NCBI GenBank assembly: GCA_030430205.1
Contig: JAUIGE010000008.1
Span: forward strand, 1-64,000
Source of the DNA: Bacteroidia bacterium
Lineage (GTDB): Bacteria > Bacteroidota > Bacteroidia > J057
DNA length: 64,000 nucleotides
Reading direction: 5' to 3'
The notes under the pieces are model-generated. The model was not told the origin of the DNA. It was given only the letters and a program-made list of their open reading frames with translations, and made no database searches. Positions 961 to 15,674 of this stretch are shown here, in pieces (position 1 is the first letter of the stretch; each line of letters opens with the position of its first letter). Both the position numbers and the translations under genes were made by a program.

Positions 961-2095
961 CTAATTAACTGAAACTCTAATTTTTTGGGCTATCTTCTTT
1001 TTTATGTCAGTACATTCAATTGAGACTTTTATCTCAAAAATGCCAGTTCTTAAAGGAACAAGATAGTATTCATCCCATATCCCTTTTGTCGAAATTTTTT
1101 CAATAGTTTCAATTTTTATAATGATTTCATTGGTTTCGGAATGAATTAAATAATCAGTTAGGTAGTGTTTTTTTAGCGAAAGTGGTTCCAGGTATTGAAG
1201 ATTTAATTTGTTCGGATTTTTTCTTTCAAGAAAATCATTAAATTCTTTTATAGCCTTCTTTATTGGATTAGGAAGGATTTCAGGTGATGAAGGCTTCTTT
1301 ATTGACTGGAATTCATTACTTGAAAGTAAAATTAGCTCATTGGGGATTACAATGTGGATATAAACATTTTTTGCATTTATTAAACCATGATTTAAGACGT
1401 TAATTCTTATTTCATTTGAATAGTGTAATTTTCTAAAATATAGTTCATATATATCATTAAACGATTCAATCTCTAGCCTTTTTTTTGCCAGAGTTTTATT
1501 GTATTCTCTAATTTCAGTAGAAATTTTGTCAAAATTTATGTAGGAAGGAATTGCTTCTAACTCAAGAGGAATAATTGGTTCGTAATCTTTATGATTAATT
1601 TTTTTTATGTAATTTAAATTAATTTCATCTCCATTATTCATTAGGAGTTTTAAATCAGGGGAACTTTTATAAAATAAACTAAGAAGTTCATCATTTTTTT
1701 CTTTGAGTTTTTCATTCCTTTTCTCTAAAGCAGAGATCTTTTGTTCCAACTTGCCTTTTGGTACACCGCCTTCAACTATTTCCGCAATTAAATCCCCCTC
1801 TTTTTCATTAATATATGATTGGCTCAATTCAGATATAGTTTCTAAAACCCCAATAGTGATTTTTTGCCTTTCTATTTGATATTCTTGATGGTAAATTACA
1901 CTGTTAAGGTATTTTTTTTCAATAACATTTAAGTTACTAGAGAACGCAAGAAATGAGTTGAAAAAGCTTTCATATTTTGATAATTTTTCAAGTTCAGATA
2001 TCAGAATAGCTACAGCTTTTTCCAAAGCTCCTAGCTTTATTTCATTCCTTACCCCTTTTATTATCGTTTCCATATTCATTTACATTGCAAGTAAC
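936..2095. repeat. inverted repeat bracketing the EAD-like gene
   Basis: GTTACTTGCA at 936-945 and its exact complement TGCAAGTAAC at 2086-2095 flank the AT-rich gene 961-2079. Similarity continues imperfectly inward for about a dozen bases. The arms lie 15 and 6 bp outside the ORF. This geometry suggests a discrete inserted cargo unit. No target duplication is evident. Confidence 0.45.
961..2079 (-). CDS. EAD11-like effector-associated domain protein with coiled coil
   Basis: 372 residues, no signal peptide, cytoplasmic. Residues ~3-88 have the pattern of effector-associated domain 11: a helix with LEKAVAIL, a second with the N-F-L-x-x-SSNLN region, then YHQEYQIERQKI leading to VLETISEL. 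EAD domains are small death-fold-like adaptors that, in predicted bacterial conflict systems, join NACHT, caspase, TIR or similar partners through like-with-like pairing. Residues ~108-135 form a charged coiled coil. The C-terminal ~200 residues look beta-rich (INVLNHGLINAKNVYIHIVIP) and resemble an Ig-like module, but no family was recognised. The gene is far richer in AT than its neighbours and sits inside an inverted repeat beside a dead IS91-type element, so horizontal gain is likely. No NTPase or effector gene adjoins it. The domain call is by eye. Confidence 0.6.
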   Translation of the reverse strand: MNMETIIKGVRNEIKLGALEKAVAILISELEKLSKYESFFNSFLAFSSNLNVIEKKYLNSVIYHQEYQIERQKITIGVLETISELSQSYINEKEGDLIAEIVEGGVPKGKLEQKISALEKRNEKLKEKNDELLSLFYKSSPDLKLLMNNGDEINLNYIKKINHKDYEPIIPLELEAIPSYINFDKISTEIREYNKTLAKKRLEIESFNDIYELYFRKLHYSNEIRINVLNHGLINAKNVYIHIVIPNELILLSSNEFQSIKKPSSPEILPNPIKKAIKEFNDFLERKNPNKLNLQYLEPLSLKKHYLTDYLIHSETNEIIIKIETIEKISTKGIWDEYYLVPLRTGIFEIKVSIECTDIKKKIAQKIRVSVN

Positions 2096-7200: not shown

Positions 7201-7250
7201 GGTCAGATTATTATCTGACCTCACCTTCCAGTCAGATTATAATCTGACCC
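7198..7250. terminator. double hairpin between convergent genes
   Basis: GGTCAGAT-TATT-ATCTGACC (7201-7220) is a perfect 8-bp stem. GTCAGATTATAATCTGAC (7231-7248) is a perfect palindrome. They separate the plus-strand GH2 gene from the minus-strand gene ending at 7237, so they may terminate both. Both stop codons fall inside the repeat unit, and a third copy of the unit follows the stop at 4353. Confidence 0.6.
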
Positions 7251-8007
7251 TACCTTCCAATATCTCTTTTATCATTTTCAAATCTTTCAGATTTGCCTTT
7301 CTCATCATCCTGCTCATGAAGGGTTTCATGATTTTGGAGAAGCCTTTAGGCTCTCCCCTATTCCTCAATTTCATCAGGGTAGAGTCATCATCTACCGCCG
7401 TCCAACTGTAGGTGGTTTCCATAGGAAAAGGGCCTTGCGCGGTGCGCATGATAAGCTTTTTGTTAGGAATGAGCTCGGTGATCTCGTAGGTATAGGCCAG
7501 TTCCCGGCCCATAAACTTTGCCTTGAAGGCAAGTTGTGAGCCTATGGCCAGGGGCTTAGCGGTTTTCCATTCAATGGATTGAATATTCACATACCAGGAA
7601 GGCGCGTTGTCGGGATTACCGGCATAGGCGGCGACCTCGGCGATGGGCTTTTGGATGATGATTTCTGTTTGGACGTCTACCATGGTTTTAGTTGTCGGTT
7701 CCTGAAGAGATGATGCTTCTCCAAGGGATGTTTTAAGCACCGCAATTACCTCTTTCCTCTTAAAAAGCTTCGCTGCTTCTAAAGCATTTTCTCCGCCCAT
7801 TATGGCCTTTGCATGGATATCTGCACCATTTTCCAATAAGTATTTCACTACTTCTAGCTGTCCCAATCCTGCTGCTTCAATCAAAACTGATGTCAGGTAT
7901 TCAGGATGTTGGTAGTTTGGATCAATACCGTTTTTGATATGGTATTTAACCAATTCGAGATCGCCCTTTTGGGCTGCGTGAAACATTTCTTTCCAGTCCC
8001 CCCCCAT
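7237..8007 (-). CDS. ankyrin-repeat / SRPBCC fusion protein
   Basis: 256 residues, no signal peptide. Residues ~5-105 hold three ankyrin repeats ([42 protein letters not shown], then a degenerate one). After a short linker, residues ~112-250 form an SRPBCC (START/polyketide-cyclase-like) domain, with [32 protein letters not shown] and a MKLRNRGEP strand. SRPBCC folds bind hydrophobic small molecules, and ankyrins bind proteins. The ligand and partner are unknown. The last codons (GRVRL) and the stop lie within the GTAGGGTCAGATTATA repeat, so the repeat has shaped the C-terminus. Confidence 0.75.
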
Positions 8008-12005: not shown

Positions 12006-15000
12006 TCACATTCCAAAAAGCGATTTCAGCCAGGCCCAAAAGCCTGTTTCTTCTGATTTTGCTTCGCTTTGGACAATTTCCACCTCTACTTCCTGATCTT
12101 CCTGATCTTCCTGATTGGCATTTTCCCTATCGACTTGCTCTTCTTCGACTGAAGGGCTGTTTTTGATGGAGAGAATGGCTTTTTGCAATTCGGGAAGGCC
12201 GCCATCTGGCACAAAAAAGCCAAAGTGGTTGCATGGCACTTTGTGGAATTGAATGGGGAATTTCCTTTCTGCAGGAATGTTATTCACGCTGCCTACGCCC
12301 ACGAAAATATCATTTTCGTCTCCAAAGATGTATTTCTTCAGGGAAGAAAACTGCGGATCGCCAATGCCGATCTTATCCAGGATTTTGCCGACCATTTTTT
12401 CTCCCTCATCGGGTATCATGGTAAGGCTTCCGGCAAAAGCGGTATAAGGAATGCCCGGATCGGGCGCGTTATGCAGGTTTTTCAGAAATTCTGAACCGGG
12501 TGTCATGGCCTCGGAATTAAATTCCAGGAATTGGTCGGCGGCTTTGACCGCGCCAAAAAGATAGCCCAGGGCAGCGATGCCCCAGCCAAGGCCTGTCAGG
12601 CCATTCAACAAAAGCGTTGAGCCAAAGGTAGCCCACTGCTTGATGCTCAACCAGGGAGAGCCGCCGCTTGGCGTACCCGCTACTATCAGGTGGTTGACCA
12701 CCTTGTTGCCATCGAGCATCTCGATGAAGTAGCGCGACACCAGACCGCCCATGGAGTGGGCGATGATGTTCAATTCTTTGCCGTGGCCGGCACCAAGCCC
12801 CACAGCTTCCAGCTGGTCTTTGAGCAGCTTGGAGGTCTCCGCGATGCGGGTATTGAGGGTTTCGTAATCGAAAACCAGCACCGTATCGTAGCCGCCTTCT
12901 TTTTTCAAAAAGCTATAAAGAGACTGTTCCGGAAATTCTTCCATATCCGCAAAGAAGCATTCTTTGCAGGAGCTGGTAAAGCCATGAATCAATATCATGA
13001 TTTTATCAGAAGCCGCGATTGCGCTTTGCACCGCATCTTTTTCGTAGGTAAACTCAAAGCCATCTTCACCCAATCCCGCCACGCCAAGGCGTGGATATGG
13101 AAATTCGGATATACCGAATTTACCACCTAAGAGCCTGTGTACCACAAGTTTAACGGATGAACTGAGGCTGCGCTCGGCAGTGGCAGGAGTCGTCAGCCGA
13201 TCCAGGCTGATCTCTGGTTTGCCGTCGGCATTGGATTCAGAAAACCAGGGCAGCAGGATGCCATCGTCCTCCTGAACGATCACCAACTGATCGTCGGCTC
13301 CCAGTTCCGTATCGAAGGTCAGTACCAAAGGATTTTCCTTGCTGACCGAAGAGCGGTCCAGCCCTTCTATTTCGAGGATTTCCATGCCGGGAGAGGCATT
13401 CTGACCCGCCACCAGCTCAAAGGGCTGGCTGTTGGGGATAGATCGAAAAGCCTGTGTACCAGGCAATTCTGCCTGCACAGATCGGGAGGCATGTCCGATG
13501 CTGGATAGCTTTACCTTGCCATTCGTACCTGAAGGGAATTTGACACTGACAGCCGATTTCGCGACCACCTGCTCATCCGATGCCTTATCATCCCAGATAT
13601 TGGTCATCGAAATCAAAGCCGTGGTCCAATCTGTCACCTTCTTGGGTTTTCGGATAATCAAAGACCGGGTCTGCTGCTCCTCCAGCAATATGCTGAAGGA
13701 ATCCATTCCTTCTTCATTCCCCACACTGCGATCTCTTTGAGGATAGTCAAAGCCGCTTTGTTCCATCAGAGAAGCCTTGAAGGGCTCAGTGCTGGCTACC
13801 ATTTTCAGGTAGGTGGTATCCTGCCTGATGCCTTTGTTTACCAAAGCCTCGGGCACATTGGGCGCCAGGGTATCACCTCCGGCCACAAAAATACTTTGCC
13901 CTGGCCCTACTACATTTTGACCAAAAAGGATGTTCTGGATGGAAAAATCACTGCCCATGGCAAGGACAGCTACATGATAATCCTGGCTGCTGTGGTTGTT
14001 TTTTACTTTTACCTTGTAGACAGGTGTTCTGCCCCAACTGCTATCTGTTATTTCCCCATATATCTGAAAAGCAATGGCAATTTCGCCTTTGCTATTGGGC
14101 GTGACGGGCTCTACTTTGAGAAGCTGGTCGGTCTGGGGATCAAAATGGTGGGCCTCCACTTCCAGCTGCAATGTTCCCTGCGGAATATTGGTGGTAGCAT
14201 TGGCGAGGGACTGCGTCCTGTCCCATCGGGCGATGCCCGAGACGATTTTCAGCGCGTTCTCAGCCTGTCGGCTGTTGATTTCAGCGAGTGGCTCGCTGAG
14301 GGCACGGGCATCGGTAGGACGAAAAAATCCAAATTTTTCCTTTCTCTCATGGGCGTAGGCCATGATTTTGTAGTCTGCCTCGGCATCAGGAGCTACCAGC
14401 TCCAGGTATTTTTGTGCATCGGCATCCTGCTTAAAAGCCGCTTCCAATAGCTTTACGCCATTTGCCTGAGCAGCTGTTTCCGCTTCAAAATAAATTTTGG
14501 TTTTGGTGATCGGCAAACTCAAAATCGTTGCCTTGAAGGTGGCGTCATGACTCAGCGTAGCTGTTCCGTCAAAGCTGATGGTCGTCACCGAAGCGTCAAC
14601 CTCTTTTGACTGGGCAACTTCCAAATATTCGGAAGGCTTCGCCGCTATATCCGCCTGGGAATCATAGATGGCAAAGCGGGTAACGCCTGTAGCCGGGATG
14701 CCATTCAATTGTCCTCCGGAAAGCGTCCAACTGCCTCGCTTTTGATCCCACTGCACCATATAGCTTTTATCCGTAGACTTCAGGCTTCCTTTCAGAAAAA
14801 CCATGTTGGCGTCCACTTTGGCACCTGATGTTTTGAGGGAAAAAACCACATCCAACTGTGGATTTTGCTCTGCTACCTTTCCACTTACAAAAGAAGTGGA
14901 CTTGCTGATCAATTCATCATAGGAAATATCGCCCTGGCTTTCCTTCAGAAATTTCAGGATGGAATAGGTGAAAATGCCTCGCTTTTTCCCGTCAATGACC

Positions 15001-15674
15001 AATTCTTTGGCAGTCTGCGAACTCAAGGAGCCTTGCAAGGCAATGTGTGAGCCGGTCGGCAGCTCGCTATTGACCATTTTGCCATTGGCAAACTCCTTCT
15101 GAAAAGTATCCGCGAACTCGCTTCGCTCCATGAAGACGTAGTCTTTGAGGTCGCGTGCTTTGGCCTGATCGTCAGAGGCCTGACGCTTGGTGACTTTGGC
15201 GGTATCGCGGGTATTGGAGCCCGAATGGCAACAGTCAAATATGGTGACGATATGCGGATTTTTCCGCGCTACCTGGTGCAGCAAGGCGCGCAACTCTTTG
15301 TCTGCAAGATCGCGGTGATAGACAGAATCTATGGTCTGGCGGCTATCATATAGCACCAGGGTTTCATTTTTGTGATCTGGCTCCAGGTCATAAAAGGCTT
15401 CATGGGTTTTTTCCTGAGAACCATGACCGCTATAATGAATAAAAACGGTGTCCTCTGAGCCTGCCTGCGAAAGGTGAGAGAGAAAAGCATCTACCACATT
15501 TTTGCGGGTGGCTTGTTCATTTCGGAGCGTTTGGAGCTTCAATTGATCTGAAGGAATCGTTCCTTCCAGATATGCCTGAACTTCTTTGCTGTCCTGCACA
15601 CAACCGCTCAAGGGCGGGACAGGATGGCGGTAGCTATCAATAGCAATCAGGAGGGCATAAATTTTATTGGCCAT
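12006..15674 (-). CDS. caspase (C14) - alpha/beta hydrolase fusion
   Basis: 1222 residues, no signal peptide. The N-terminus (~1-285) is a caspase/metacaspase-like p20 domain: YSGHGSQ with catalytic H84, and DCCHSG with nucleophile C149. The beta-rich middle (~290-850) has several Ig-like or DUF4384-like stretches and was not matched to a family. From ~885 to ~1110 comes an alpha/beta hydrolase of lipase/PGAP1 type, with an oxyanion HGF at H897 and nucleophile elbow AHSMGG at S974. The tail is a Glu/Asp/Gln-rich linker (~1165-1205) ending in a Trp/Phe-rich amphipathic segment, GFWAWLKSLFGM, which could touch membrane. Both catalytic centres look intact. A plausible reading is a protease-controlled lipase or esterase acting in cell death or conflict, but that is inference. 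It is monocistronic, with a 15-bp-stem hairpin at its 3' end. Confidence 0.8.
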   Translation of the reverse strand: MANKIYALLIAIDSYRHPVPPLSGCVQDSKEVQAYLEGTIPSDQLKLQTLRNEQATRKNVVDAFLSHLSQAGSEDTVFIHYSGHGSQEKTHEAFYDLEPDHKNETLVLYDSRQTIDSVYHRDLADKELRALLHQVARKNPHIVTIFDCCHSGSNTRDTAKVTKRQASDDQAKARDLKDYVFMERSEFADTFQKEFANGKMVNSELPTGSHIALQGSLSSQTAKELVIDGKKRGIFTYSILKFLKESQGDISYDELISKSTSFVSGKVAEQNPQLDVVFSLKTSGAKVDANMVFLKGSLKSTDKSYMVQWDQKRGSWTLSGGQLNGIPATGVTRFAIYDSQADIAAKPSEYLEVAQSKEVDASVTTISFDGTATLSHDATFKATILSLPITKTKIYFEAETAAQANGVKLLEAAFKQDADAQKYLELVAPDAEADYKIMAYAHERKEKFGFFRPTDARALSEPLAEINSRQAENALKIVSGIARWDRTQSLANATTNIPQGTLQLEVEAHHFDPQTDQLLKVEPVTPNSKGEIAIAFQIYGEITDSSWGRTPVYKVKVKNNHSSQDYHVAVLAMGSDFSIQNILFGQNVVGPGQSIFVAGGDTLAPNVPEALVNKGIRQDTTYLKMVASTEPFKASLMEQSGFDYPQRDRSVGNEEGMDSFSILLEEQQTRSLIIRKPKKVTDWTTALISMTNIWDDKASDEQVVAKSAVSVKFPSGTNGKVKLSSIGHASRSVQAELPGTQAFRSIPNSQPFELVAGQNASPGMEILEIEGLDRSSVSKENPLVLTFDTELGADDQLVIVQEDDGILLPWFSESNADGKPEISLDRLTTPATAERSLSSSVKLVVHRLLGGKFGISEFPYPRLGVAGLGEDGFEFTYEKDAVQSAIAASDKIMILIHGFTSSCKECFFADMEEFPEQSLYSFLKKEGGYDTVLVFDYETLNTRIAETSKLLKDQLEAVGLGAGHGKELNIIAHSMGGLVSRYFIEMLDGNKVVNHLIVAGTPSGGSPWLSIKQWATFGSTLLLNGLTGLGWGIAALGYLFGAVKAADQFLEFNSEAMTPGSEFLKNLHNAPDPGIPYTAFAGSLTMIPDEGEKMVGKILDKIGIGDPQFSSLKKYIFGDENDIFVGVGSVNNIPAERKFPIQFHKVPCNHFGFFVPDGGLPELQKAILSIKNSPSVEEEQVDRENANQEDQEDQEVEVEIVQSEAKSEETGFWAWLKSLFGM

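Follow-up and report, generated by a model that had tools for sequence, protein, structure and literature searches.

A caspase-like domain fused to a lipase-like alpha/beta hydrolase in a Bacteroidia bacterium, and the sensor-linked proteases encoded beside its relatives

Bacterial caspases are known to serve defence in two ways: they activate other proteins, or they cut those of the cell itself. It is well established in bacterial immunity that a pro-enzyme can be activated by its paired protease, as in Canu, AVAST, and Hachiman (PMC12799240). In Canu, the caspase-activated nuclease, a MALT1-like caspase with an Ig-like fold has been shown to gate a separate MBL-type nuclease (PMC12799240). 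Among VMAPs that carry a caspase domain, an alpha/beta hydrolase gene is described as always adjacent and the pair as likely to co-operate, according to Kaur et al. (2020; PMC7159879). Bacterial orthocaspases, or type I metacaspase-like C14 peptidases, have been surveyed twice (PMC3501461, PMC8283722); no alpha/beta hydrolase domain on a caspase protein was found in these two surveys, and that of 2012 lists one Chitinophaga protein combining GDSL-lipase, amidase, and caspase domains. Lastly, STAND-caspase/AP-ATPase death systems of multicellular bacteria bring together caspase, STAND, and WD40 or TPR modules under an apoptosome-like scheme (PMC8195603).

The protein described here is encoded in a window of 64,000 nucleotides (the whole stretch of DNA that was analyzed) from a Bacteroidia bacterium (contig JAUIGE010000008.1). 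Its likeness to Canu is a caspase gating a second hydrolytic enzyme, which is a proposal here, and in contrast to Canu the second enzyme is an alpha/beta hydrolase held in cis. With the orthocaspases it shares the fold, the His-Cys dyad, and candidate acidic S1 residues. Whereas caspase and hydrolase are separate neighbors in the VMAP systems, as described in the main text of PMC7159879, the window protein is a single chain, and no VMAP-C, MoxR, or vWA gene was found among its ten scanned neighbors; most of its fusion relatives are instead paired with caspase-nSTAND1 genes. The STAND-caspase/AP-ATPase systems share the caspase, STAND, and scaffold components, but a caspase-hydrolase protein as an operon partner, or as part of a 3057-residue chain, was not found in the accessible text of PMC8195603. 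The literature searched also yielded neither the fused caspase-hydrolase protein, nor its STAND operon, nor a mention of DUF7379, the profile matched by the hydrolase half. What is new is the caspase-nSTAND1 neighborhood of the fusions, along with their CHAT partners and one VMAP set; the occurrence of caspases and alpha/beta hydrolases as VMAP neighbors was already noted in PMC7159879. The family ties those neighbors, predicted in 2020, to concrete and widespread proteins, some of them plasmid-borne. To the first-pass annotation of this DNA, the exact architecture was not known to have been characterized; no characterization was found in the literature searched, although the fusion itself is not rare.

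The fusion gene and its two catalytic halves

The gene is an uninterrupted reading frame of 1222 residues with an ATG start and no internal stops. Its features, all on the minus strand, are as follows.

12006..15674, minus: caspase / beta-rich / alpha-beta hydrolase fusion gene, 1222 aa, single ORF
14850..15659, minus: caspase domain, residues 6-275 (PF00656; fold match to 3bij)
15423-15425 and 15228-15230, minus: caspase dyad H84 and C149, conserved in relatives
within 14850..15659, minus: acidic S1-pocket candidates D28 and D147
13605..14777, minus: beta-rich region, residues 300-690, common to caspase-only relatives
13035..13577, minus: second beta-rich region, residues 700-880, accompanying the hydrolase
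12159..13013, minus: alpha/beta hydrolase domain, residues 888-1172 (PF24096; fold matches to 6wpy and 6zth)
12984-12986, minus: HG motif H897, predicted oxyanion hole
12753-12755, minus: predicted nucleophile S974, in HSMGG
12309-12311, minus: predicted triad acid D1122
12225-12227, minus: predicted triad histidine H1150
12009..12158, minus: tail, residues 1173-1222, an acidic linker and a short hydrophobic helix predicted at 1212-1219
12009-12044, minus: short hydrophobic helix GFWAWLKSLFGM at the end of the tail

The first-pass annotation had read this frame as one protein with a caspase-like and a lipase-like half, and the intact frame together with two profile matches above their cut-offs bears this out. 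Peptidase_C14 and DUF7379 were both recovered in the Pfam search that it had suggested, PGAP1 giving a weak match. The probability that the fusion is an assembly join or a chance frame is practically nil: more than 50 full-length relatives carry the same fusion, which rules out a join, and the best of them, from the same genus as the window organism, is 45% identical over 1173 residues. Both folds are recovered in the structure models, and the two halves are fused in more than 50 genomes, contrary to both outcomes that the first-pass annotation had named as refuting its reading. By sequence comparison, the fused caspase-hydrolase architecture is real and old.

The caspase half matches Peptidase_C14 (PF00656) at residues 6-275 (E 9.6e-17, above the curated cut-off). 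In the AlphaFold2 model, residues 1-300 adopt a caspase fold, with a VIA Z of 26.6 to 3bij (GSU0716), which together with metacaspases, including metacaspase-4, is among the closest solved structures. The dyad proposed at first pass was confirmed in the alignment, where Cys149, a position outside the search patterns, is kept in all 53 sequences; His84 is likewise kept in 53 of 53, a count that is biased because this residue falls inside a search pattern. By fold and dyad, the N-terminal half is a caspase-like C14 peptidase (orthocaspase) and a predicted protease. Asp28 and Asp147 are invariant across the same 53 sequences and occupy the positions that in metacaspases confer a preference for a basic P1 residue. 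They are thus candidates for the S1 pocket, with Arg or Lys as the predicted P1 residue of the fusion caspase. The EACC1-associated caspase type (NF047832) was rejected, the match reaching 43.6 bits against a curated cut-off of 140.

The hydrolase half matches DUF7379 (PF24096) at residues 894-1020 (E 3.6e-15; 56.8 bits against a cut-off of 33), and the LCAT and Palm_thioest models, like PGAP1, match the same region weakly. Residues of approximately 858-1172 form a lipase-like alpha/beta hydrolase fold in the AlphaFold2 model (Z 21.0 to 6wpy and 20.2 to 6zth), with lipase BlEst2 and phospholipase PlaB among the closest folds. Profile and modeled fold thus place the C-terminal half with DUF7379 and the lipase-like alpha/beta hydrolases, a fold from which the substrate is not readable. 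Ser974 had been named as an element of the lipase-like hydrolase, and its setting in HSMGG and its conservation (47 of 53 sequences) uphold that assignment. His897 had been named beside it; it is a real residue of the HG oxyanion-hole motif and not the catalytic histidine, and the triad is predicted to be completed by Asp1122 (53 of 53) and His1150 (52 of 53). All three residues of this predicted Ser-Asp-His triad are present in the window protein.

Six of the 53 members lack the nucleophilic serine yet retain the Asp and His of the triad, suggesting that binding alone can suffice, and Palm_thioest is the most frequent hydrolase Pfam match after DUF7379 (37 of 42 members). Both points favor a different reading, in which the hydrolase would act like a depalmitoylase or thioesterase on an acyl substrate, either small or protein-bound, and would regulate the caspase or the sensor instead of damaging membranes. 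We consider this distinctly unlikely, as a lipase and the phospholipase PlaB are among the nearest folds, even if neither a fold nor a weak profile match identifies the substrate, and as the chain is membrane-anchored in 11 members.

That anchor is a transmembrane helix at the C-terminus of those 11 relatives; it is absent in most members of the family. At the same end, the window protein has the Trp/Phe-rich tail FWAWLKSLFGM that had been called amphipathic and a possible membrane tail. The tail is there and is predicted to be helical, but its amphipathicity is weak, with a helical moment marginally above that of shuffled sequences (p about 0.07). A membrane tail gains plausibility from the 11 anchored relatives, although the signal in the window protein by itself is weak.

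Distribution of the family and the region between its halves

Fifty-two full-length relatives were compared, at 26-45% identity, from at least seven phyla: the cyanobacteria, Bacteroidota, Pseudomonadota, Chloroflexota, Deinococcota, Actinomycetota, and KSB1. Peptidase_C14 and DUF7379 occur together in all 42 aligned relatives, and database records label such fusions "caspase family protein." Searching genome contigs with the single window protein retrieved no relative; an alignment of three fusions retrieved 79 loci. Cyanobacteria, many of them filamentous, are the commonest source among these loci, and other fusion relatives are carried on plasmids. The sole match among the phage records searched was one distant caspase-domain match. 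Several cyanobacterial relatives are without the hydrolase half yet fall inside the fusion clade, often beside a caspase-nSTAND1 gene, and the hydrolase is therefore not always required.

Between the two halves, the region of residues 300-690 shows beta strands in the model and has no match in the Pfam profile search. Caspase-only relatives match residues 1-693 of the window protein and end at approximately residue 693, whereas the hydrolase-only protein of genome G008 matches residues 707-1176 and so includes the second beta-rich region. Each half can therefore work without the other in cis. This, the separate conservation of the two active sites, and the lack of an assignable cleavage site between the halves are consistent with two independent effectors that are delivered together, the caspase cutting cell proteins and the hydrolase attacking an ester or thioester, with no proteolytic activation between them. 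We regard such an arrangement as unlikely: the same order of fused domains recurs across phyla, which independent action would not strictly need, and activation of a pro-enzyme by its paired protease has the precedents named above (Canu, AVAST, and Hachiman). In a search for a conserved cleavage site, Arg670, Arg731, and Arg835 between the halves were each found in 51 of 53 sequences, and Arg164 and Arg174, which follow the catalytic Cys, in all 53. These residues may be structural, and none is therefore claimed as a cleavage site.

Operon partners and a proposed two-step switch

A caspase-nSTAND1 gene lies within 6 kb of 34 of the 52 fusion genes, and in 23 cases it is directly downstream, on the same strand, and less than 600 bp away. 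The catalytic His and Cys are retained in all 38 of these partner genes that lie near fusions. In Saprospiraceae the gap between fusion and partner is 11 bp, and in Boseaceae the one strong nSTAND1 match of the genome is a gene that overlaps the fusion gene. On Nostoc plasmid pNLP1, effector and sensor form one protein of 3057 residues with caspase, hydrolase, second caspase, nSTAND1, and periplasmic-binding-protein-like domains. Elsewhere, the partner is a TPR-CHAT gene, which overlaps the fusion by 4 bp in genome G239 and lies downstream of it by 31 bp in Alcaligenaceae and by about 245 bp in Anabaena sp. 90; in genome G001 and in KSB1 the partners are CHAT plus STAND. The Mastigocoleus fusion is directly upstream of VMAP-C, MoxR-type AAA, and caspase/FGE-sulfatase genes, a likeness to the VMAP systems of PMC7159879. 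Judging from these gene orders, the recurrent operon partner in the relatives is usually a second clan-CD protease, caspase or CHAT, attached to a sensor.

The fusion and the caspase-sensor neighborhoods of its relatives suggest a built-in two-step switch for self-destruction or defence. To the fuller proposal, that the protein is a two-enzyme, proteolytically gated lipase-like effector of bacterial conflict or programmed death driven by an apoptosome-like sensor protease, we give an even chance, and we infer its activation steps, substrate, and outcome as follows. The sensor, typically with the second protease on a scaffold of STAND NTPase, WD40, or TPR type, would detect an invader or damage and assemble. 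The proteases would thereby be brought together, and the fusion caspase would be switched on through proximity or cleavage. A cut within the chain would then unmask or free the lipase-like hydrolase, held at the membrane or close to it in some members by the C-terminal anchor, and the hydrolase would attack membrane lipid or another acyl ester, leading to cell death or growth arrest. A more specific version, which is tentative, is an initiator-executioner cascade in which a STAND-caspase sensor activates a membrane-associated caspase-lipase whose self-cleavage frees the lipase to breach the membrane of its own cell. If so, the Nostoc protein would hold the whole pathway in one chain, and the pairing of a caspase-lipase fusion with a STAND-caspase sensor would offer a compact model of the route from apoptosome to executioner. 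The fusion also offers a testable case of coupling between proteolysis and a hydrolase.

The ten genes scanned near the window gene are ordinary or unrelated, with no STAND or CHAT gene among them, and the window neighbors scanned include no Canu MBL-type pro-nuclease gene. This isolation and the prevalence of cyanobacteria among the retrieved loci would suit a role outside defence, for instance in developmental death or in the handling of envelope stress; we judge it very unlikely, since the recurrent STAND, CHAT, and VMAP partners and the presence of the family on plasmids fit conflict systems better. Lamassu was rejected: its hydrolase effector LmuA gives a weak PADLOC match (residues 890-1014, E 0.0036), no LmuB or other Lamassu component was recognized among the neighbors scanned, the three neighbors scanned with PADLOC gave no match, and no Pfam-scanned neighbor is SMC-like. 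The 331-residue upstream gene was also rejected as a partner; it occurs in 10 of 13 family genomes, without a tie to caspases, and in the other nine it lies on contigs or at places different from those of the caspase-hydrolase relatives. For the gated effector proposed above, any partner in the window's genome would need to act from another locus. That genome has two CHAT-STAND pairs at other loci, which resemble the pair of G001.

Domain architecture and active sites

The caspase and the alpha/beta hydrolase that the first-pass annotation had placed in one protein are both matched in a single frame, above the curated Pfam cut-offs.

12006-15674 (-): caspase-hydrolase fusion gene, single stop-free frame, 1222 aa
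Residues 6-275: Peptidase_C14, Pfam match above the curated cut-off
Residues 300-690 and 700-880: beta-rich regions without a Pfam match
Residues 894-1020: DUF7379, Pfam match above the curated cut-off

Over the DUF7379 stretch, the Pfam models for PGAP1, LCAT and palmitoyl-thioesterase give weaker matches. The generic 'caspase' model of PADLOC matches the protein (E 3e-33), and its sequence matches among solved structures are metacaspases and small lipases. In an AlphaFold2 model of residues 1-1180 (mean pLDDT 75, pTM 0.59), the caspase part resembles 3bij (Z 26.6), metacaspase-4 (Z 26.1) and MALT1 (Z 21.8). The second half, modelled alone (pLDDT 77.5, pTM 0.75), matches the lipase BlEst2 (Z 21.0) and the phospholipase PlaB (Z 20.2). 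Since many other alpha/beta hydrolases score only slightly lower (Z 18-19), the predicted fold class is firm but the substrate class is not.

H84, C149, H897 and S974 lie at the positions first assigned to them. H897, however, which had been listed with S974 as an element of the hydrolase, is part of an HG oxyanion motif, and the triad is S974, D1122 and H1150. Across 53 sequences, D28, D147, C149 and D1122 show no variation, while 52 of the sequences retain H1150 and 47 retain S974. H84 is also invariant, a count that is biased because one of the two search patterns used to gather relatives contains it; C149 and the hydrolase residues fall outside those patterns, and their counts are free of that bias. 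In six fusion relatives (L105, L106, L114, L115, L125 and L156), five of them cyanobacterial, the nucleophile Ser is replaced by Gly, Glu or Asp and the triad Asp and His are retained; these may be inactive hydrolases.

Distribution of the fusion and its halves

A scan of GTDB genomes using three fusions as queries returned 79 loci, 52 of which carry the full-length fusion as a single ORF: Cyanobacteriota (41), Bacteroidota (3), Pseudomonadota (3), Chloroflexota (2), Deinococcota (1), Actinomycetota (1) and KSB1 (1 record). Both Peptidase_C14 and DUF7379 were matched in all 42 members scanned. Full-length copies, annotated 'caspase family protein', were found on four plasmid records (Anabaena sp. 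90, Rhizobium ruizarguesonis, a Nostoc cyanobiont and Deinococcus aetherius). An assembly join is ruled out by these plasmid records together with the 52 single-ORF loci. The second half was found in just 2 of 395 evenly drawn Bacteroidota genomes, and the family is therefore rare in this phylum.

Within the window's taxonomic family, fusions are present in genomes G001 (45% identity over residues 1-1173) and G006 (truncated at a contig end). Caspase-only paralogues, about 700 aa long, are common in this family; the window's own genome has two, on contigs 29 and 80. Genome G008 encodes a hydrolase-only protein of 591 aa that corresponds to the second half. This gene occurs on two contigs (L037:9386-11161 and L036:195-1970) with identical flanking gene order, perhaps as an assembly duplicate. 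In a tree built rapidly from the caspase half, without bootstrap, with an uncertain deep order and with two long branches that meet, the window sequence groups with G001 (support 100) and the retrieved locus L080 (97). Most caspase-only proteins of Bacteroidota form a separate group in this tree, and those of Cyanobacteria are placed among the fusions, which fits repeated loss of the hydrolase.

Other domain orders were observed as well. In genome G002, a frame open for at least 1368 aa (L031:63-4166) carries an additional N-terminal region ahead of the caspase and, C-terminal to the middle region, apparent leucine-rich repeats. A 1249-aa protein (L041:549-4298) has a long N-terminal part followed by a C-terminal caspase domain, the reverse of the usual order.

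Partner genes

Partner genes were scanned with profiles built from Pfam-verified examples. Of the 52 fusions, 34 have a caspase-nSTAND1 gene within 6 kb, and in 23 such a gene follows the fusion immediately on the same strand, less than 600 bp downstream; several partnerless loci are short contigs. Strong nSTAND1 loci number several to a dozen per genome in five cyanobacterial genomes checked (8-12 Mb), and the Boseaceae genome has one, in the gene overlapping the fusion. The estimated chance expectation is that no more than a few per cent of genes would have a strong nSTAND1 match within 6 kb. Among Cyanobacteria the cases cannot be counted as independent, but the pairs from Boseaceae, Saprospiraceae and Cyanobacteria are taxonomically distant from one another. 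The catalytic His and Cys are kept in 38 of 38 caspase-nSTAND1 partners. Caspase-only relatives often have such a gene nearby too, so the STAND association is also one of the caspase half.

At two more fusion loci (G001 and KSB1), STAND and CHAT genes occur together. TPR-CHAT partners are present in genome G239, Alcaligenaceae and Anabaena sp. 90, a divergent CHAT partner in Rhizobium, and another caspase in Deinococcus aetherius. In Mastigocoleus (L113:8001-19526), the fusion gene is immediately followed by genes for VMAP-C, a MoxR-type AAA protein and a caspase/FGE-sulfatase. CHAT is a member of the caspase-like clan, and what the partners share is thus a sensor scaffold linked to a second clan-CD protease. 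A Nostoc plasmid, pNLP1, encodes such a combination in one chain.

L172:3491-12664: annotated one-chain protein, 3057 aa
Residues 6-280: caspase
Residues 679-1158: hydrolase half
Residues 1221-1488: caspase
Residues 1517 on: nSTAND1
Residues 2711-3040: periplasmic-binding-protein-like domain

Beside the window fusion, no STAND- or CHAT-type partner was found among the ten nearby genes scanned, which are of other kinds; the gene 51 bp upstream, encoding 331 aa, is widespread in the taxonomic family. Two CHAT-STAND pairs elsewhere in this genome (contigs 29 and 6) resemble the pair beside the G001 fusion.

Mechanistic reading and C-terminal tail

The fusion is best read as a protease-gated hydrolase effector, a function that we infer. 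Caspase and alpha/beta-hydrolase genes have been inferred to operate together in VMAP systems (Kaur et al., 2020; PMC7159879), and the bacterial caspase of Canu is able to activate a pro-enzyme (PMC12799240). An alpha/beta-hydrolase fusion of this kind is not listed in the relevant passages of two domain surveys (PMC3501461, PMC8283722). The present analysis adds the fused family and its actual triad, candidate C-terminal anchors, the neighbouring STAND-caspase genes and the single-chain form.

The first-pass annotation had also proposed an amphipathic membrane tail. A strong transmembrane helix follows the hydrolase in eleven relatives, all cyanobacterial (best 19-residue hydropathy 2.25-2.88). 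The tails of the window protein and of G001 each combine a linker, acidic or polar, with a short hydrophobic helix; G008 has a comparable helix at its C-terminus. The p value for the helical moment is about 0.003 in G008 and about 0.04 in G001, but about 0.07 in the window protein, where amphipathicity is not significant alone. Many family members have no tail. Membrane association at this end thus appears recurrent rather than universal, and for the window protein it is plausible.

Elsewhere in the window, two genes were observed.

961-2079 (-): 372-aa protein with an EAD11 effector-associated domain (residues 10-85, E 1.7e-6, above cut-off), in a low-GC stretch at the contig start; possibly part of another conflict system
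7237-8007 (-): 256-aa protein combining ankyrin repeats with a START-like domain of the polyketide-cyclase/lipid-transport type
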